A stretch of DNA of 64,000 nt from NCBI GenBank assembly GCA_004369045.1, contig ML213510.1, forward strand, positions 1 through 64,000, written 5' to 3'. The notes under the pieces are model-generated. The model was given only the letters and a program-made list of their open reading frames with translations, had not been told where the DNA came from and did not search any database. The stretch is from Heliocybe sulcata (taxonomy: Eukaryota; Basidiomycota; Agaricomycetes; Gloeophyllales; Gloeophyllaceae). Every line of letters starts with the position of its first letter. Positions within the stretch are counted from its first letter, which is position 1. Shown in pieces: positions 35,999-52,159 of this stretch. The position numbers and the translations under genes are program-made.

Positions 35999-36960
35999 TG
36001 AAACCCGCACAGACCTAAAGGGGAGACACAACCACAACGCAAGCACCAACCCCTTGGTGCCAGATGGCTGCGAGGTCCGGGGTAATGAAGGGTATAGTAA
36101 AACGTTTGGAGGGAGTCAATAGAAAGGATAGGGCTGAGACTGCCAACCACAGTGCAATGTATACTCTAATGCGTGACAAATAAATGCTAAAAATAGAATG
36201 CGATCAAAATGCGATGACACGTGACGTCACGCGCTCTAGGAGCGAAATGTGCGCTCTAACTAAAAATAGATGTAGACGCTAAAAATAGAACAATGCGAAA
36301 ACGGGAAACTCTGGTGTCTGGTGGGACACAGACAGCAGCAGCGATGGAAATAGGGACCAGCAGCGCAGCAACGAGAGACAGCAGGTAGTGGACGCAGTAA
36401 GCTCAGAGAGATAAGAGACACAGAGTTTAGAGGGGAACAGTAGATTTGCGCAGGGAGGTAGTGACCTAACCTAACCTGGGGTACAGTGTTGGGAAGTCTG
36501 ACTTAAGTATACTACAGAGAAAATCAAATAAACCGAGTACCATATGTTAACAAACTGAAACTACTCCTGAGAATGATCCATCACAAACCTCAGACAAAAG
36601 GGAACAATCTCCGTACACTACAGTGACCATGTGCAAAGGTGAGCGCATACCAAAAGGAGCATGGGAACGCGCTCAGCGCTGCATCAAAAAGCGCTGATAG
36701 GCCGTGTGGAGGCTGTGCCAGTGCCTGCAAGGCATGCACAGCCTCAGAATTGACTCGAAACTTGATGGACAGCACATGCAAAGGCACCACTGTGCAACAT
36801 GAGATCGGAGAGTCATCGGGAATTACCGGAAATAGTGAAAAGTCCATGGAAACTCGAGTTTTGCTCGTAGTGTTATGCCACAGATATGCTCACTCTCACA
36901 CTAAGCATGGAAATCTGCGCAAATAGCCTAAAAATGCATTTTCGGAGATCAGAGCCATGT
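35999..36960 (-). repeat. diverged copy of the 1.3-kb repeat family
   Basis: In reverse complement this shares blocks with the repeats at 42.5, 46.0 and 52.2 kb: TAAAAATAGATGTAGAC, GCTAAAAATAGAACAA and a late block ending GAAAATGCATTTT. It is closest to the partial copy at 38,560-39,204, which lies in the opposite direction on the far side of a DIRS-like gag region. No coding frame of note. Confidence 0.65.
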
Positions 36961-38575
36961 AGAGTTGGATCACCAGTTTACACCAATGCTGCCTAATGGA
37001 CTCAATGCAAGGCACAAGCGGCTTGAGGCTGTGAACTGCCAAGCTGGGAGCAGCCCACGTGAGTCTCATGCGTGCTGGCTTGTGGCATCCATGCTTGTGG
37101 CGTGATGCCAGGATCGTCCCCTCCCATATAGTCTTGCCAGCATGACACATCTGCCTTCCCCTTGTCCCCCTTTGACTCTGGTAGGCTTGGGCAACTTTTT
37201 TGTTTCATCTCATTACCCTTTCCTCTCCATGTGTTAAGCATAATCCTACTCTACTGCTTCATATATATTTATCTTGAATATTTTAGTATGACCCAGACAC
37301 CTGGTCCATCTTTGCTCGGCAGTAGTGATGCAAACTTCCTGCCCATGGATAAGAAACTGTATATGCCAGAGCACCTAGCCTGACTGGCACACCTCACCAG
37401 GGGGGAAAAGTTAGAGTTCAACAGATTAATCAGTGTCAGGAACACCTTCTGAGTGGAGAAGCAATCCCGTTGCAAGTCTGACAACTCACTTTCACCCACA
37501 TCTTTGGTAGAATCTCTGATTGAGATCCCAGACAAGGAGGAAACACCCTTGCACCTGAGCACTCCAAAGAACAGCAACAAGTTTCAGGCCACTATGCAGA
37601 TGTTGGCAAGTCTTAGTCCTTCCATCTTTGATAGCATTGTTGGCTTCGTCACTTCTAAGAGAAAAGCATCAGACAACTCCAACCTGGATGAGGTCTCCGA
37701 GCCCAAGAAGCTGAAGCTTCTCACAACTGAAGGTGAGACCAAGATCACCCCCAGTGTGACAGTACATTACCAAGGCATCCGCCCCAAAGTTCAGCTTCTG
37801 ATCAAACACAAGCAACACTTATGACTGTCACTCTTCACCAATGATGGCTTACAGAAGCTTGCTGAGGAGGGAGACATGATGCCAAGGAGGAAGCTTGCAT
37901 CCAAGATCTCAATCATCAACATCTCCCAGTTCAAGAAGGAGTCACTGCTGACCAAGGATGAATTCTGTGAGGCTATCGATGGTGCCATGATGGTCTTCAC
38001 CATGCTAGGCAACACTTCTTACATCCGGCAGTGGGATGACCATAGGAGCTGGTTGCTCAACCTGCTAGACTTCAAAGACAACTCCCACACAGTCTTGACT
38101 TGCGATATCAAACTTCGGCATGAATACTGGACTGGACCTTTCAAGTTCAACCTGATTCACTACAACACCAGGTATCAGTCAAAGCTGGCCAATCTCCAGC
38201 TGGCCCAGATGAAACAGCTGGAACACAATATGCATAGTTCACTGGGAGGTAGGTCTGCAGGCCTGGGCCCCAGTTCTTCAAGAGGTGCAGGACCTCAGGT
38301 GATTGGTTGGTGCACCCGTGGAGGAGGTACCAGTGCTGGCACTGGCAGGCAGTTTCTGGGAGGTAATGGGGGTGCTGGCCTGGCTCCCATCTGCCTGATC
38401 TGCTCACATAAGGGCCATTTCATCTGGGACTGCACCATGACACAATTCCCAGATGGTGCCCCTGTCTTTGCCAAGACCAGAGGTTGCACCCTGCACCCCT
38501 GAGGTGGTATTGAGGAGATCCACCAGATCTGGAATGTCACATGCAACATACTCAACAAGTGCACTAACTAAGCGA
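36961..38575 (+). mobile_element. DIRS-like retrotransposon, gag-like part (fossil)
   Basis: Open frames here read as a nucleocapsid-type protein: a polar N-terminal part, a helical middle (QLAQMKQLEHNMHSS), a Gly-rich stretch and a zinc knuckle CLICSHKGHFIWDC. This is the usual first gene of basidiomycete DIRS-like elements. It is separated by inserted elements from the RT, RNase H and tyrosine-recombinase parts at 42.2-45.7 kb, which probably belong to the same old element. It is broken, with a few breaks. Confidence 0.6.
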
Positions 38576-39204: not shown

Positions 39205-40516
39205 TGTGGGGATGGGCAATGTTCAATCTTGCCAGACACTTATGTAAGTGGATTGTGGTGCAAATAGTGACCAACACCGCATCACTTCACACCAAGCTCA
39301 AAATTCATTTGAATAAGACCCTAACACACTGACTGCATGTGCCAAGAAGTATGTACAACAATAAATATAGCTGTTGAGATGTCAGATAGCCAGGATATCT
39401 CAGTCAGGCACTACTCCACTTCTGATGCATTATCTAATTCATCTTCATGATCCTTGTCCTTGACAGGACTGGGCACTCATGAATGCACCAGTCCTTTGTC
39501 TGGCCTTATCTTGAGGAGCTCCTGCTTTTCTACATCAGATAATTTGTTATAAAGCTTAGGAACCTCCTTGAGCTCCAAAAGCATCTCATCTTGCCACTTC
39601 ATTTGGCTCTTCTTCTTCTGGACAAGATGCTTCAGAGGCAATGCAAGCCACTTGTCAACCTGCAGATTAAGCTTCTCTGCTACTTTGCCAGTGATTGAAC
39701 CCAGTCCCTCTGGGGTCAGGATGAACTCAGGGGACTTGAGGCGAGCTTTCCGGCTGTCAATTCACACTTGCTTTGTTCTGTCCTTGACCACTAGCATCTG
39801 CACTGCCTCCTCTCCTGTGTTGACAAGCTCTACCGGCCAAGCATGCTCCACACCACTTGATTCAACCTTCTGTGCTTCCTGCATGAGATAGTGGTGATCC
39901 TTATTGCTGAGTTGTTTCATAAATAGTGCTGTCTCATTCTTGCAGTGCATATACAAGGCATTCTGCTTGTGCTCTGTAAGTCTTGGCTTATTACACAACA
40001 TCAGACAGGTACTCCCCAGAGCACCTTCGCAAGTGCCATTTGTTGCTGGTGCAAAAGCTCACCTATGTTCATCCAGAGTAGTGCTACTTATAGCACCACC
40101 CTGGATACACTCGGCACTGAACCACTCCCATGTCTTCAGCGTGCCCTTGCAGGAGGCTACTAGAATAGAACAAAGCTGCAGAAGACAGGGTGCCAGCTCA
40201 TGCACCCTTGAGATTAGTGCTGGAGTTTCCCAGGTGTTGCCATATAGGCATGCTCTCTTAGGGGTTGCATCTGATGAGAGGACCAGACCTGGATCACAGA
40301 TAATCCTGTGTAGGTGATTTCAGACATCCTTGTGAAGTGGGCCCAGATTGAGTGTGTTCACTCCCCGCCTGCATACAACACACACATAAGGGTGCGAGAG
40401 AATCTGTGCATAAAGTGCTAGCACAGCAAATTCAGTGAGTGTTGCATCATCATCCACAGCCATGTAGAGATTGTGTTCAAGGTTCGTGAACCTGGACCAA
40501 TCTTTCTTTCCATCCC
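39205..40516 (-). mobile_element. TIR DNA transposon, copy 1 (C-terminal part), unnamed family
   Basis: On the minus strand the broken frames encode LTEFAVLALYAQILSHPYV, NLGPLHKDV, LEHNLYMAVDDD and, further on, FAPATNGTCEGALGS, then KNETALFMKQLSNKDHHYL and VESSGVEHAW. The first three blocks align with the protein of copy 2 (48.1-51.6 kb). The outer end reads TGGGGATGGGCAATG and, like copy 2, has a TTGCACCACAAT block just inside. The 5' part is missing: a gypsy LTR begins at 40,517. Several stops lie in the frame, for example after NLGPLHKDV, so it is inactive. Confidence 0.65.
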
Positions 40517-40783
40517 TGTAAGGGCTCCCCTTCAGCCACCTTCGCTTTCAGCCACCGTGACGTGACGACACGTGTCACGCGGTGCTGCCACTTTGTGTTT
40601 TGCACTTGTTGAAGGGTTCTTTAACCTGTTCCTCTTTGGAACTCCCTTCAACAACGTGCAGGTGAGCCCTTAGATATTAGTAGTGGATGTATCTAGTGCT
40701 CATGAGTGTATATATTTGCTTTGGAACTCCCTTCAACAACATGCAGCCTTGCCAGCTCACTGGTTGTTAAGGTAGCCCTTACA
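40517..40783 (+). repeat. LTR of a Ty3/gypsy-like element
   Basis: 267 bases starting TGTAAGGGCT and ending AGCCCTTACA, a 10-base inverted pair with TG...CA borders. A gag region follows directly, so this is a 5' LTR. A second copy, split by an insertion, lies at 52,160-53,766. Confidence 0.75.
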
Positions 40784-42239: not shown

Positions 42240-45200
42240 ACAGCTCTCTATCATACCCCTACAGTCATGCAATGCTACTTGACCATATTGCTGTGCTTTG
42301 TATTTCCTGTCACCAGGATAAGGGACAGGATTTCATGTCTAGCTGTGTGTATCTAGGTCTCTTCTGGGAGATCAAGGCCAAGGCTGTCTGCTTGCCTGAG
42401 AAGGAGCACCTAAAATTCTTGGGTTAGGTGCAGGTATTTCTTCAGAGGTTCTTAAGGGCTCAATGCCTGCTCGAGGACATCATGAAAATGCAAGGCTCAT
42501 TATGTCACATTGCCTTTGTATACCAGTGATAAACACAAACACACAACAAATCCCAGAAAAAGGAAGACCTAAACAAACAATGACAACCACACACCAGCAC
42601 CAATCTCTCAGTGCTACTGCAGCTGCAAGGCCCTGGGAGTTGAAGGGTATGAATGTAGCTCAGAGCGAGTCAATGGGAAATATAGGACCAAGACCACGAG
42701 CAACAAGAGCAACATAGCAAAGTGCTAAAAATAGAACAAGCAGAAAAAGCGACTGGGAGTAACAGAGCATGCTATAGAAGCAAATGCGCTAAATGCTAAA
42801 AATAGATGTAGACTCCATAAATAGAACAAAGTGAGAAGGAGACCTCTGGTGTACACACAACAAAAGCTCTGAAAGAGAAGGACAGAAAACACACAACAAG
42901 CAGAACAGCAAGGTGTGGGAAAATATGAACATGCAGGAGTGGAGGGCATAGCAACAGCTCCCACAACTGGCAATAGCTAGGGATGACTCGGGGCATAGAG
43001 CAGGAAAAGTTTTGAGAAGCACAGGATAGTGAGCGAGGCTTCTGGTGGTTTAGTGACAAGCAGTGGCTTGAGTGACAATTAGCAGGTTCAGCAATGATGA
43101 GTGGGATAGCAAACGAGGCACAGGAAAGAGAGGGGAACACTGGATTGCACAGGGAGGATGAGATATAAGCTCTTGGGGACTCTAGTAGCCTTGGCAACCT
43201 GAATTACAAGTACAGGAGGTGCTACTCAAGTAGTCTACCTGCATAAACCAAATACCTGAGGTCTATGCAAAACAGTAAGACAAAAGGACACTAGATGAAA
43301 ACCTGATCCTCAGAACAGGCTTCAAGAGCAGCAGCATCCATATGCAGAGGCAGCCATTGGCTGACACAAGTGTGGGAAAGTGTGCACATCACATTAAAAG
43401 CGGTGTTGATGGCCTGCCGGATGACAAGTGGTGCCGGCGAGGCATGCACAGCCTCTGAAATGACTCGAGCTGAATGAGACCACCTAGAATAAGACTGCCT
43501 GCCATTGCCAAAGTGTCACTGCATCGCTGCACTGCACCACTATGATGTGCTGCCAATGCCAATGCCAACACAGTGCCACTACACTGCTGCATATTGGGAG
43601 GCCAGTGATAGCCTGCAGAATGATTTGGAGAGGCTGTCTGACAAGATCAGAGCTCCAGAAAATATCAGAAAAATCTATAAAACCTCGAATATTGCTCATG
43701 CTGATGCACTGGGAGTACACTCTCTATTGCTCTGAGCGTGGGAACATGCGCTAATGTAGCGAAAATGTGTTTTCGGTGCCCAGAAACACATAGGGCATAT
43801 TACCGGGATGGGCACTCATGCCTCCCCAACCTCACAAAGTTTGTAGCCTTGTTCAAGAACAACCAGCTGGCAAGACACTTCCCAGTGTGTTTGATGGTAT
43901 CAGGCTTGAAGTGGTGGGCCGACCAGGTTGCCCTAGTCAGGGTCTACCATTCCCTTCACAGCATGGGCCCATTAGTTGATCACCAGATCTTTGTTGATGC
44001 CTTGATGAACTGAGGTATCAGCATCACCTGGGGGTGATCAATGAGATGTATGGCACATGAGCCTGGGATGCCATGGTAAATTCTGGGACATCGGATGGCT
44101 CGAAGGCATGGTAGTCAAGCTCATTATCCACCTGCCTGAGGAGCAAGGTATCAAAAATGCCGCAATCCTGGCCCATTTGGACAATCAGGGGATCATTGGT
44201 GCCTTTGACAAAGGCTGTAGTCACAACTTTGAGGTGAACTTATTGATTAGGTGTGCTGCCATCATTCACACCTCTTGCAACATTTCTCTAGTGCTCAATT
44301 ATGTCAAATCTGAAAAGAACTCTGCATACCACATCTCAAGTGGAGATCTGGGTGTGGCAGTTTCTTGCATCTGCTCTCAATTTCAAGCTCCCAAGGGAGC
44401 TCAACATGTTTTTGACCCATGTTTAGGTCACACATTTGAGTTCCACTTTGCTGTGATTATGTTTTTGCTTACTGTCCATCCTTGCAGGTTTTATTGCCAT
44501 AGTGAGGTGGCAGGAGGTGCATAGCCCCCACCAACCTCCAGCAGGTCTGTTGAGCAGCCTGGGGTTCTCACAGCACTACACTCATCTGGTATCCAAAAGG
44601 GTTGCAAACCATGGGTGGACTTCAACATCACCCCCAGCTCCTATCACCCACATGTTGCTGCCATTGATCAGCTGCATGCATGGACATTGCCATTCTCTAC
44701 CCACCTAGATTCTCTACTCCACCTGGAGCTGTCACTGGGAACCGCAAATGCAGTGCAACATCTTCTATTCATGGTGCTAGAGCTGTTGATGCTCACTACC
44801 TATGGTGCTGGCCTGCTATGTTTCCACCAATTCTGCAATACGGAAGACATCTCTGGGTTTTCATGCATGCTGACATCCCATTACTTCATTGCCCATCATG
44901 TGGGATCTGTCTGAGGCGGCACCTTGTCTGGTTTGCTGACTGGCCTTCACACCTAGCATGATGTCAATGATGCACCCTGGCATGGTGACTCTCACTTTGT
45001 GTCCCTTGTCCAGACTTCAGCATCAAAATGTGCCCACCCTCCTCTCACCACATGCAGTGGGCCCTGGTGACCATTGAGCACCTTCTATAACTGGAATTAC
45101 ATCTCAGCCGAGATGACCCCAGGGACTATGCCATCCTTGTGGTCACCCTTGTGGCATTCTGGGGCTGCTGTCATCTTGGTAAGCTCACTGTCCCCTCAAG

Positions 45201-46023: not shown

Positions 46024-47305
46024 GGTAATATGCTCTATGTGTCTCTGGGCACCGAAAACACATTTTCGCTACATTAGCGCACGTTCCCACGCTCAGAGCA
46101 ATAGAGAGTGTACTCCCAGTGCATCAGCATGAGCAATATTCGAGGTTTTATGGATTTTTCTGATATTTTCTGGAGCTCTGATCTTGTCAGACAGCCTCTC
46201 CAAATCATTCTGCAGGCTATCACTGGCCTCCCAATATGCAGCAGTGTAGTGGCACTGTGTTGGCATTGGCATTGGCAGCACATCGTAGTGGTGCAGTGCA
46301 GCAATTCAGTGACACTTTGGCAATGGCAGGCAGTCTTATTCTAGGTGGTCTCATTCAGCTCGAGTCATTTCAGAGGCTGTGCATGCCTCACCGGCACCAC
46401 TTGTCATCCGGCAGGCTATCAACACCGCTTTTAATGTGATGTGCACACTTTCCCACACTTGTGTCAGCCAATGGCTGCCTCTGCATATGGATGCTGCAGC
46501 TCTTGAAGCTTGCTCTGAGGTTCAGGGTTTGGTCTAGTCTTCCATTGTCTTATTGTTTTGCATGGACCTTGGGTATTTGGTTTATGCAGGTAGATACTTG
46601 AGTAGGGACTTGTGTACTCACAATTTAGGTTATCTGAGGTTACTAGAGGTTCCCTAGCTTGTATCTCGTCCTCTCTGTGCAATCTAGTGTTCCCCTCTCT
46701 TCCCTGTATCTCTGTCTGAGTTTCCTGCATCTCCCTTGCTTTACTGCTAATCATCGCTAAACCCACTGCTTGTCGCTCATTGCTGGCAAGCCTTGCTCAC
46801 TATCCTGCACTTCTCAAAACCTTCACTGCTCTGCATCCCAAGTTGTCCCAAGCTATCACCAGCTATTAGGTGCTCTCACTAGTCCCACTGCTTTCACTTT
46901 GTCATATTTTCCCACACCTCATTGTTTCGCTCACTGCGTGCTTTTCATCTAGTTCTTCCAGAGTCTGTATTTTGCCAGACACCAAAAGTCTCATTTTACC
47001 TTGTTCTATTTTTGGAGTCTACATCTATTTTTAGTGTTTAGTGCATTTTGCTTCTATAGTGTGCTCTGTATCTTCCAGTTGTTTTCTCCACTTGTTCTAT
47101 TTTTAGCACTTCGCTATGTTGCTCTTGTGGCTTGTGGTCTCGGTCCTATATTTCCCATTGACTCCCTCTGAACTTCATTCATATCCTTTGATTCCTGGGG
47201 CCTTGCAGCCATGGCAGCACCAAGAGATTGGGGCTGGTGTGTGGTTATTTTTATTTGTTTAAGTCTTCCTCTTTCCGGGTTTCATCATATGTTCATGTTC
47301 ATCAA
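46024..47305 (+). repeat. 1.3-kb repeat, copy B
   Basis: Begins GGTAATATGCTCTATG and ends GTTCATGTTCATCAA. It lies just downstream of the DIRS-like recombinase and forms a long inverted pair with copy A. About 15 bases outside the shared start (AGTGCCCATCC) are also shared with copy A, so the true border of A and B may be longer than that of copy C, or A and B may be the inverted ends of one element. Confidence 0.7.
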
Positions 47306-48100
47306 TGGGTTCTGATTGGGTACCACACTTTTGTGGCCTTCAGCCACATTGGCATCTCAGCAGGCCCAATGGCCTTCAGCCATTGCCGCACCAGGCCCTC
47401 CCCAACCCAGTGAAATTGTATCCAACATAATATTGAATCAATTGTGTCTCTCTCAGTTTCTGTCTCTTGCATTGGTTCTATCAGCTGACCCTTTCCTTGC
47501 TCCTACCCACTCCCTAGCTTGGCAGAAAAATACTTTGCTGACATGATCTCCCCTCCCTCAGTCATTCTATAACCCCGACTGAGAGAGGTATCTTCCTTAT
47601 GACTTTCTTATGGTACTTATGAGTTTATTGTCACAGCAACTAGCTGTGCCACCAGACCCAAACAATAACAAACAGGCTTACTGATTCCTAACCAGATAAG
47701 CAAAGATGAGGAGGGGTCTTGAGATAGACAGGGGAAACAGAGGGTGAAGATAGATCAGAGATACAGATTGCAGATGTAGAGATGTAGTGCTGTTAGGCTA
47801 CTAGGTATCGACGAGGAGGCTAAGTCTGGGGTCTCATGGAAATATCTACAAGTTTTATATACACAATAGAATGGTGACTAAATGGAAATGTCACGGCTGA
47901 GTAATGATGAGTAATAATGAGTCATAGCTGACTAACTATCTATAATATCAAATGGTCTATAATCACATGTATGTACAGGAACCAATCAGGGAGATTGGAT
48001 TGAGTGATGCGATCACATGTGATCATCACTAATCAGAAGATGAGGTGGAGATGATGCAATATGACATGATGATGGTGCAATATGATGCCAAGGCAATATA
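47306..48100. other. AT-rich unassigned sequence
   Basis: About 800 bases between copy B and the TIR transposon. No domain or repeat end is recognised. The local text TGAGTAATGATGAGTAATAATGAG shows minor direct repetition only. Confidence 0.35.
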
Positions 48101-51100
48101 TTGGGGTTGGACAACGCTCGATCTCATGCTGATTTATTTGTATTTTTTTCGCTCCCAGCTAAGTGGTCATGCCAAGTGTCCCAACACAGTCGTGACAACT
48201 TTTCCATCGCTGTGGATACTCCTACCTCAAAATTGTGATGCAGACCTATAGTATATACCTAGTTCTAGTGCAGACATGGGTCCATGAGCAACAAGACTGG
48301 GTATCAGGTTAGATATAAATTGTATTTCGACAAGTACTCCGAGGATTCCTTCCATAATAGATGTCTGCACTAGCCCTCATAAATACTAATCAACTGAAGA
48401 AGAAATCAGAGGAAACGAGTGAGTTGCTGTGCTAAAAAGTTATCACGACTGTCGCACCTTCGAGGCCTCGTTTGTTAACGCCACAAGCGTGATGTGCAGC
48501 GTGACGGCGATGTTACACACGTGTCACGTCGACAATGTGAGGACCGGTAGCAATGTTCCTCGCTGCACCTGGGCAGGCCATACCACATTAAACTATATTC
48601 AATGCATCTCTAAAGTCATCACATATGTTTCTATAATTTATCGAATTTGTTCTGGTCCCAAACATTGACTTGAAAGCTTGACATCAGCCCTGTGAAGCAG
48701 TAGGTCAATGGGGAATACACGGAACCCAAAGAAGAGACACGTACCATACAGGAAGACAAGACCTGGGTGGGGTGAAGACAAAGAAAACACATCTGCAGAG
48801 AATATGAAGGGTAAAGCACCTTCCAGGCCTCGGAAGACAGTAAGTAGCTCTAGACTAGACCACCCAAAGTCTCACAGCAATTAACTGTGAATGCACTCAC
48901 TCCAGCCACTACGCGGGCGTGTTCTCGAGCTTGAAAGACAGCTGGAAGGTGCCGGAGAGCAACTATAGGAGTGCCAAGAATGTTTGCAGACTGCAGGCAA
49001 TGCTAGCAATAGCCATCAAAAATGAGCTAATGACTACCAGCGCTGGTATTGGAATGAACAAAAAAAGGCCAGCCAAGCAAAGAATACCAATTTAAGCCTC
49101 AGGAAGCATTTGAATCATATGCAGAGGGTTGAGCTTCCAGAAATGTGAGAACAGGCAGAAGTTGCAGAAGATGAGACTCAGAAGAGCAAGGATACCATCA
49201 GGGGCCAGGCCACCAAAGTCAAGGAACAGAAGGACCGGCTATCTTCAGCACAGCAGACAATTAAGAAACTGCAGTCATGCCTATGGAGGGTCCTGGTTTT
49301 GCTCGAGAGTGCTGTTGCCAAGGCAGAGCGGTGGGCCCAGATATGGAAGCTCACTGATAAAGGAGTCTATACTCTGGAAGCTCGTGAGATGGCGCATGCT
49401 ATGGCAGATGGTGGAATGTCAGAAGAGAAGGTTGGGCCTATGATGCACCATATGATAGCTTGCATGGGTGCTGAAGTTGTCGGAAAGCCGATGAGCTGGC
49501 ACACGGTATCCATGAGTATTTCGGAAGGTGGGCTGGCATCGAAGATGCAAGTAGCTTTGGAAGTCAAGGCAACAGACAGTACATGCCATTGCTCTCCGAC
49601 TACAGCTATCTATCAATAATATTCTGCAGCTGTAGTCATCAGCTCAGATGGGACCAGTCATCACCACGAGAATCTGGAAGCGCAATGTGCTACATACCTG
49701 GCACCATCATCTCATTCAGTTTCGGGACCATCCGTAGAAATGACACCGCAGATTCAGACACTCAGGGTACATAGTACCGCAAATCATGCCAGTGCTATGC
49801 AACTGGAGGCATGGAAGGCTACGATCACGGATATCTGTGGTTTGTACTGAGATAGTCCCCTTGCTGCAGAGTCTGTGTCTTGCTTACGGCCTGTTGACTT
49901 CGCTATATGCATTGCAGGGATGAATAGCAACCATGCAGAGGATTGGAAGGAATTGTCAAAGCTTATCCGTGAATGGGTGCACTTATCTTGGCAGACAATA
50001 CTCGGAGAGAGAGAGATTGAGTTGAGACCACCAGATGAGATTGCTGCACTTCTTGTGGAGTCCTTGTCAGGGCACATTGCTGCTGTTGGTGGAAGTTGGC
50101 TGGCACTCTCAGACATCGAGCGAGCTGAGCACCACCAGCAGATCGTCAATGAGATCAAGGTCTCTCTCGGAGCGGCAGCATATGCAGCCTTGTCCGAAGT
50201 TGAGAAGTTCAAGATCAATCGATTCATTTGGCTAGGCTGCTGCATGCACAAAGAGCTGAATAGTGTCAAAGGGGGAAATGCAGCTATGATCGCATGGTGG
50301 GTGCAGAATGGAGTCCCGGGGCCTGTACTTCTGCTGAATAAATTCAATGCTGCAAATTTGCCTCATATTCTCTCGCCATCAAGCTCATTGACACCTGCTG
50401 AGAAGCTTGCATTCAACTCCTCAACCTGCGGTGGAGTTAAAATCACCACCCTCTTGGGGTCCGAGTTCAAGCACAAGGATGACAAGAAAGGACAACAAGC
50501 TACTTATTCATACTGGATGGAGGAGCAGCTCGGGCATCCACACTCATTTCCGGACACCAGCAATACTCGATTCCAGTCGCACGGTGGAGTGGCGACTGTA
50601 TTGATCATACATCAGACTCTACACATCAAATTCATGGAATTTGTCCGGGATGGAAAGCAAGACGATTCAGGATTTATGAACCTAGAAGAAAACATATACA
50701 GGGGCCTGCAGGATCCTCCTACCCTTACCGAGCTTGCCATCTTGGCCATTTACGGTTAGGCCATATCTATTCCCTATATGCGTATTGTCCGAGGGAGTGG
50801 TGTTGCGAGCAGAAACGGTCTGGATCTTGGACCACTGCATCAAGATGTCATCACACACCTGCAGAAAATTATCGACAATCCAAAGATCCTATTATCCCCA
50901 TCTGCAACACACAAAACGGGTGCAATGCACGGCAAGTTCTGGGAGAGCCCTGACTTGTTTCCGGCTGTCCATGTACTGCTGCCCGAGCTTCCTCACATTG
51001 AACCCGTGCTTGTTGCCTTCTGTAAAGGGGCACTGGAGACCTGGCAGCACTTCAGTGCTGAGTTTGCAGAGGCAGGTGCTATCGCACAGATGACGCAGGC

Positions 51101-51580
51101 CAAGCGGGACCAGGAAGGGTCCTGACTACAAATGATGCCTGTGAGGGTGATGCTACGGGGGAAGGCCAACCTATCCGAGCATAAGCGGAACGCCAAATAC
51201 ATGTACCAGGAAAGATCTTACACGGGTCGCGCTCATGATGGATGAGCTGCGGGAGATTCTCAAGCACTACCATGCACTGCCGGAGGATGAAAAACAGCTG
51301 GTACTCCAGGAGAGATCAACAGAGAATGAGCAAGATGTTGCACGCCCCTGGTACTTCCACTTTCAGCATAATTCATGGAAATCCCAGTTCTACTGAGATA
51401 TTTGTACACAATCATATGCTATACATATCTCTAATATATATTTGTATATTCTCTGGGACTGTGTCGAGGCAGAACAACAGAATCCATGTGTTTTTGCAAC
51501 AAGGTCGAGTTGGGACGCACTTGCACCACAATTTGCTTACTAAGCGATTCACGTGACCATTAAGGATTGCCCAACCCCAA
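48101..51580 (+). mobile_element. TIR DNA transposon, copy 2, unnamed family, 3.5 kb
   Basis: Ends are TTGGGGTTGGACAA on the left and the inverted TTGGGGTTGGGCAA on the right, flanked on both sides by ATATA, a possible 5-base target duplication. On the plus strand it encodes a protein in pieces. About 49,299-49,610 gives EAREMAHAMADGGMSEEKVG and EGGLASKMQVALEVKA. The longest frame, 49,875-50,759, includes GCCMHKELNSVKGGNAAMIA, NKFNAANLP, FKHKDDKKGQQ, FPDTSNTRFQSHGG and LTELAILAIYG. It continues in another frame (50,778-51,125) with LDLGPLHQDV and HFSAEFAEAGAIAQM. So there is at least one frameshift near 50,760, and further stops downstream. I remember similar proteins from many mushrooms but know no named superfamily for them. 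Confidence 0.65.
49875..50759 (+). pseudogene. conserved transposase-like protein, central part
   Basis: 294 open codons inside the TIR element. Asp, Glu and His residues occur in strongly patterned blocks (HKDDKKGQQ, DTSNTRFQSH, VRDGK, NLEENIYRGL), as one would expect of a nuclease core, but I cannot assign a DDE triad with confidence. The copy-1 protein at 39.2-40.5 kb covers the later part of the same family. It could be a transposase or a cargo protein; being the main gene in both copies, transposase is the simpler reading. Confidence 0.55.
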
Positions 51581-52159
51581 ATATATCAAATGGTGCTTCC
51601 ATATCAAAGAGAAGCATGCAACAGTGATATATCAAAAGGAAGTGATGCAACAGTAATATATCAAAGATAGAAGCACATCACTGATGGAAGCTTGTAGAAG
51701 GTTTAGGCTAAACCCTAAAGATGTCATTGATGGGATCAGACACAGCCACTGTGCCACATCATGTGATGTCATGTGAATGTCATGTGTGTGTGACTTGTGA
51801 TTGTGGCATGGTGACATGTGGTGCAAAACTGTGACACTTATGCATGTATGACAGTGTGTCTGTTTATTAGAAGGGACTTAGAGTCATTTTCTTGTAGGCT
51901 CCCCCATACAATAGTGATGAATTAATAGACTAAGTACTTGCACCCCTACCCAACCAACACCTGTAGATTTTTGATTAGACCAGATACAAGCAGATATTAG
52001 GCCTTAGATTACAAGCCCATGAGGAGACTACTTCTCCTCAGGCCTTATATACTGCTTGAAATATAATACCAGAATATTCTATGATATTCCTCATCTGGGT
52101 TAAACAAGACCCATAACCAATTATCAGGATATTTCTAAGCAATTTCCAACAACACCCAC
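51581..52159. other. unassigned, short tandem ATATATCAAA units at left
   Basis: Between the TIR element and the split gypsy LTR. Near 51,580-51,665 the word ATATATCAAA or its close variants recurs several times at irregular spacing. The remainder, including TG/CA-rich sequence at about 51,740-51,840, is not recognised. Confidence 0.35.

Follow-up and report, generated by a model that had tools for sequence, protein, structure and literature searches.

A low-copy mobile element with TGGGG inverted ends and a 7-bp target duplication carries a decayed gene for a divergent putative transposase

The KDZ (Kyakuja-Dileera-Zisupton) group is common in mushrooms; elsewhere, Galileo has a 7-bp target site duplication and Dada has duplications of 6–7 bp. 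In the available part of PMC12730594, the hAT duplication is given as 8 bp, with 5, 6 or 7 bp in hAT5 to hAT7, and 7-bp duplications are known from a fungal hAT, the hAT7 of rusts. The same part of that source describes Kyakuja elements with 7-bp duplications and CA..TG termini that have no inverted repeats, and Plavaka / EnSpm (CMCT) elements with mostly CA..TG termini (TGT..ACA in PlavakaA) and duplications of 2–5 bp. As for end sequences, hAT ends start with [T/C]A[A/G]NG and those of plants follow [T/C]AGNGNNG in the excerpted text of PMC6027215. We analysed a stretch of 64,000 nucleotides (the window, C8:1-64000) together with its genome (31.6 Mb in 51 contigs), and found in the window what is probably a cut-and-paste DNA transposon (class II, TIR), in a copy now dead, with its own putative transposase. 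On the partial account in PMC12730594, the element resembles hAT, and hAT7 above all, in being of the cut-and-paste kind with short ends, a 7-bp duplication and one main gene; it differs in its TGGGG ends (G at base 2, where hAT has A), in that no hAT domain was reported for its protein, and in the spacing of its CxxH-like block. With Kyakuja, on the same account, it has in common that it is a mushroom DNA transposon with a 7-bp duplication, but Kyakuja has CA..TG termini without inverted ends and the element has no detected KDZ domain. Its TGGGG..CCCCA ends and 7-bp duplication do not fit Plavaka / EnSpm (CMCT) either.

The element, a decayed copy, runs from 48102 to 51579 on the plus strand (3,478 bp), and its borders are well fixed by inverted ends and by four empty sites. 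Comparison of the ends places the left one, TGGGGTTGGACAA, at 48102–48114 (plus strand) and the right one, which reads TTGCCCAACCCCA on the plus strand, at 51567–51579 (minus strand). These 13-bp ends have the consensus TGGGGTTGG[A/G]CAA and are complementary at 12 of 13 positions. The original prediction had given the ends 14 bases and a 5-bp ATATA on each side. A 14-bp version (48101–48114 and 51567–51580, about 3.45 kb apart) is complementary at 13 of 14 positions, and the borders can be placed in four ways, with duplications of 5, 6, 6 or 7 bases. We found that the right flank of the element matches seven places in the genome, the window included, and that four of the six others carry both flanks without the element (C6:1324576, C4:1727971, C45:62740 and C24:417113). 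In all four of these empty sites the matches to the left and right flanks overlap by exactly 7 bases, one of them reading GATGCAAAGGT-AATATAT-CAAATGG; at the remaining two places (C36 and C1) the match is limited to a part of the right flank. Because the flank is a repeat with four element-free copies and a 7-base overlap, the element extends from 48102 to 51579 and the target duplication is AATATAT, at 48095–48101 on the left and 51580–51586 on the right (letters checked). Inverted ends are thus present as predicted, at 13 rather than 14 bp, the extra T/A being part of the duplication, and the supposed 5-bp ATATA is in fact the 7-bp AATATAT. For random pairs of sites in flanking sequence with equal freedom of placement, agreement over at least 7 bases arises by chance in 0.3%. 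Next to TGGGG on its outer side stands A at C2:148333 and G at 39206, and this variation between copies agrees with the base being target and not end.

The repeat that received the insertion is MITE-like. It spans 47629–51836, would measure about 0.73 kb without the element, and has TGTCACAG..CTGTGACA ends identified by eye; its two parts lie at 47629–48101 and 51587–51836. Three other copies show 5-bp duplications (CCGAT, ACGGG and GTTAC, by eye), and the copy in the window is flanked by TTTAT and CTTAT, alike at four of five bases.

One might suppose that inverted repeats flank an unrelated decayed gene by chance. The bare 14-mer end, with at most one mismatch, lends itself to that reading: it occurs at 13 places in the genome versus 11 for a reversed control, which is no enrichment. 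At the four empty sites, however, the flank matches stop precisely at the inverted ends and overlap by 7 bases, and ends joined to their subterminal bases recur, the left at two places and the right at three, versus none in either control (window copy counted in both). The genome-wide search for 14-base ends proposed earlier shows no enrichment of the bare end and an enrichment of the extended one, and the chance reading, refuted by the empty sites, keeps a negligible probability.

The element is a genuine, low-copy, defined mobile element, as had been proposed; in addition to the four empty sites, the genome contains family remnants that keep the ends of the element and in which no protein was detected. 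We found five family places in all: the complete window copy, which is the only complete one, a truncated copy also in the window, and three further places that have family ends with no detected protein, one of them with both ends. Searches with the protein give at least two copies, the window element and the truncated one. The truncated copy (39207–40520, minus strand) had been described as sharing later protein blocks, the outer end and a subterminal block, and all of these were found: it has a right end, TGGGGATGGGCAAT, the subterminal ATTGTGGTGC block that it has in common with the window element, and a C-terminal protein part matching the window protein (tblastn E 5e-28) with the later blocks in common. 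Contig C2 carries a copy running from 148332 down to 147.5 kb, in which the left end and left module are present, the right end is damaged and neither protein nor duplication was visible. The same contig has, at 1.4815 Mb, a right-end fragment that has lost the first base of the end and is interrupted by a 660-bp insertion. The copy on C9 (347.6 kb) consists of the left end minus its outer bases and part of the left module. Outer end bases are lost at C2:1.48 Mb and on C9, as they are on the right side of the C2:148 kb copy. A duplication consistent across copies, which the original prediction had called for, was looked for and is seen at none of the four other family places; the 7-bp duplication is seen at the one insertion with its four empty sites.

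Both subterminal regions carry features of the family. Adjoining the left 13-bp end of the window element is CGCTCGATCTC, which is common, one base apart, to C2:148309–148332. Further in, at 48186–48452 (plus strand), lie nested inverted repeats with outer arms of 18 bp (48186–48203 and 48435–48452) and inner arms of 13 bp (48265–48277 and 48361–48373); both pairs are kept in the C2 copy, and the C9 copy has both inner arms and, of the outer ones, the left. A pattern for this left module matched four times, with an overlapping pair on C9, and twice in the control; the C9 copy rests on alignment instead. On the right, the block GCTTAGTAAGCAAATTGTGGTGC (51523–51545, minus strand) contains a short palindrome and is kept in other right ends of the family, and four aligned right ends have the consensus GGGCAAT, CTTA, an optional T, GTAAG and ATTGTGG[T/C]GC. 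The subterminal palindromes are putative binding sites.

Several copies show secondary changes. The 660-bp insertion in the C2 fragment (about 1481.6–1482.3 kb) is hAT-like, with TAG..CTA ends and the 8-bp GATGTGGC as its duplication. The left end of the other C2 copy (about 148.1–148.3 kb) is interrupted by 201 bp of inserted DNA, which has CATCA..TGATG ends, is flanked by a 2-bp duplication (GA) and is absent from the C9 copy, its empty site; ends of this type with a 2-bp duplication are those reported for PlavakaB in the accessible part of PMC12730594. Within the left module of the C9 copy (about 347.64–347.68 kb), GTGTCCCAGCACCGTC forms a 16-bp tandem duplication.

Inside the window element, the presumed transposase gene, now decayed, occupies 48708–51396 on the plus strand and comprises an N-terminal part with a coiled coil, a core with three blocks and a C-terminal part. 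A single frame carries the protein from 48708 to 51123, as far as it can be traced. The three blocks noted earlier, GCCMHKELN, FKHKDDKKGQQ and FPDTSNTR, do lie in one open frame (49851–50759), but the protein as a whole is broken. Six in-frame stops fall in presumed exons (48966, 49023, 49146, 49848, 50757 and 51123), a frameshift lies between about 51.12 and 51.15 kb, and a TAA at 49617, inside a presumed 51-nt intron, may be a seventh stop. That intron (49579–49629) and another of 66 nt (48840–48905) were placed by eye and preserve the frame; a further intron near 49.88 kb was rejected, as its 43 nt do not. The window copy is dead because its reading frame is broken by these six or seven stops and the frameshift.

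The truncated copy carries stops of its own. The stop at 50757, the only one that can be compared between the copies, corresponds there to a glutamine codon. The three blocks lie upstream of the compared C-terminal part and are absent from the truncated copy. Across the 146 aligned codons, 72 have an identical residue, and the codon differences number 57, 36 and 92 at positions 1, 2 and 3; over 144 codons, pS is 0.775 (saturated) and dN is 0.40. Saturated synonymous sites together with this proportion of identical residues indicate that the protein was under selection while active. In the lineages behind both copies the protein, as judged by its C-terminal part, was therefore under selection; both copies later died.

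The element shows a single gene of appreciable size, and its product is a putative transposase; the protein could instead be a passenger, though no other gene was recognised. The original prediction could assign it to no named superfamily, and our sequence searches agree as far as they reach: nothing reached a Pfam cut-off, and the pieces submitted to NCBIfam, PHROGs and the PDB sequences matched nothing. The Pfam queries were five pieces from the window (E ≤ 1), two read-through translations (E ≤ 10) and two leftover pieces (E ≤ 10), and included protein pieces of both the window and truncated copies. NCBIfam was searched with pieces P0001 and P0002, PHROGs with P0001, and PDB sequences with the piece 49851–50756 and a two-row alignment; for the N-terminal piece and the closing stretch of the truncated copy, the only library searched was Pfam. 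Below the cut-offs, the strongest match was DUF4472 to the N-terminal coiled coil (E 0.0019; 19.2 bits versus a cut-off of 26.6), a piece that also gave seven weaker matches below the cut-offs. We read these, together with DUF1281 (E 0.13), Lebercilin (E 0.07) and, for the C-terminal part of the truncated copy, Phage_TAC_2 (E 0.051), as coiled-coil bias or chance.

Structure prediction was poor because relatives are lacking. AlphaFold models had a mean pLDDT of 37.6 for 658 residues from the two-row alignment, a translation that includes the possible 51-nt intron, and of 37.5 for the 377-residue core alone. Foldseek returned 142 matches in the PDB for the core model at E ≤ 10 and none at E ≤ 0.001; no transposase was among the 50 of these 142 that were listed, for a model too low in quality to weigh against an RNase H fold. 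Viral and prokaryotic contig collections, which do not cover fungi, yielded no relatives: none of 82 pattern matches in one viral-contig scan was confirmed, and one match in a Bacteroidetes genome was taken as chance, its frame having no other block of the family. Among open-licence PMC papers, the peptide blocks as literal text were unmatched and the end sequence led to one irrelevant paper only, so that within this literature we found no description of the element in print. Uncharacterised mushroom proteins with blocks such as HKDDKKGQQ and FPDTSNTR are presumably of the same make.

The protein may use a DDE/RNase H-type active site. Candidate residues, chosen by eye, are the D in ISSDGTSH, a site in GMNSNHAEDWKE and the E in MHKELN of GCCMHKELN; the second of these is N, not D, in the window copy. 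The protein is best read as a divergent transposase, either of a new lineage or very distantly related to hAT. We tentatively propose, at somewhat under even chances, that the element belongs to an undescribed fungal TIR superfamily, recognisable by TGGGG[T/A]TGGGCAA ends, by duplications of 7 bp, by a left subterminal module rich in palindromes and by a transposase that no Pfam family covers.

We consider it rather unlikely that the element was mobilised by a hAT-like transposase as a very divergent member, or a sister, of that superfamily. Beyond the duplication length of hAT7, its ends, TGGGGTTG, fit the plant hAT pattern at four of the five fixed places (on the excerpted text of PMC6027215), and GCCMHKELN resembles by eye the CxxHxxxN stretch RCFNHTINL of a hAT locus in the same genome, L041. 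At C2:148 kb, the copy's damaged right end (TAGGTGGGCAAT) has A at base 2 and is nearer to hAT, which is weak ground; the four well-kept ends (48102, 51579, 39207 and C2:148332) all have G there. The FPDTSNTRFQS stretch, we presume, echoes the TRWnS block of hAT. In the other direction, the distance from the second candidate site to CxxH is 103 residues here and 27 in L041 (both assignments by eye), and none of the Pfam hAT models was reported for the protein, HMMER filters being such that weak matches are hidden. The hAT dimerisation model matches nine places in the genome, all above its cut-off and none on C8. Since the hAT and KDZ models both find members in this genome, the models work here. 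Around the dimerisation domain of four hAT loci, a scan for ends like TTGCCCA turned up none that was clear.

Membership of the KDZ group is largely refuted and very improbable. The KDZ model does match 21 places in the genome, 18 above the cut-off, which fits a mushroom-type fungus, and the 7-bp duplication is that of Kyakuja in the available part of PMC12730594; yet the KDZ domain PF18758 was not reported for the protein and has no match on contig C8, and the inverted TGGGG..CCCCA of the element contrasts with the Kyakuja termini given in that part. Also improbable is membership of a superfamily such as P/Galileo or Dada, whose duplications are about 7 bp long and which the Pfam models would have missed. 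Both have duplications similar in length to the 7 bp of the element, which is the likeness to Galileo of the P superfamily; the difference is that there is no sequence match, the protein having none at a Pfam cut-off, and the insertion sits in a MITE-like repeat and not in a multicopy RNA gene. We assign the element to none of these groups.

Returning to the reading of the element as a transposon with its own divergent enzyme, the transposase from the single long gene would recognise the 13-bp ends and the subterminal blocks, excise the element and join it to target strands 7 bases apart, and repair of the gaps would leave the 7-bp duplication. The borders and the length of the duplication are now available for a search for intact relatives. 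Should these relatives bear out both the ends and the 7-bp duplication, a group of 'hypothetical' mushroom proteins could be renamed transposases, gene counts would change in mushroom genomes, as would their transposon annotations, and one more branch of eukaryotic transposases would be open to tests. A new superfamily, if real, would account for a number of unnamed proteins in mushrooms.

Elsewhere in the window, a weak tblastn match to the C-terminal part of the protein (36911–37057, minus strand; E 0.009, 31% identity) is possibly due to chance. Two other weak tblastn matches, at 43547–43664 and 46164–46281, have identical peptides in opposite orientation and suggest that the window contains a large inverted repeat.
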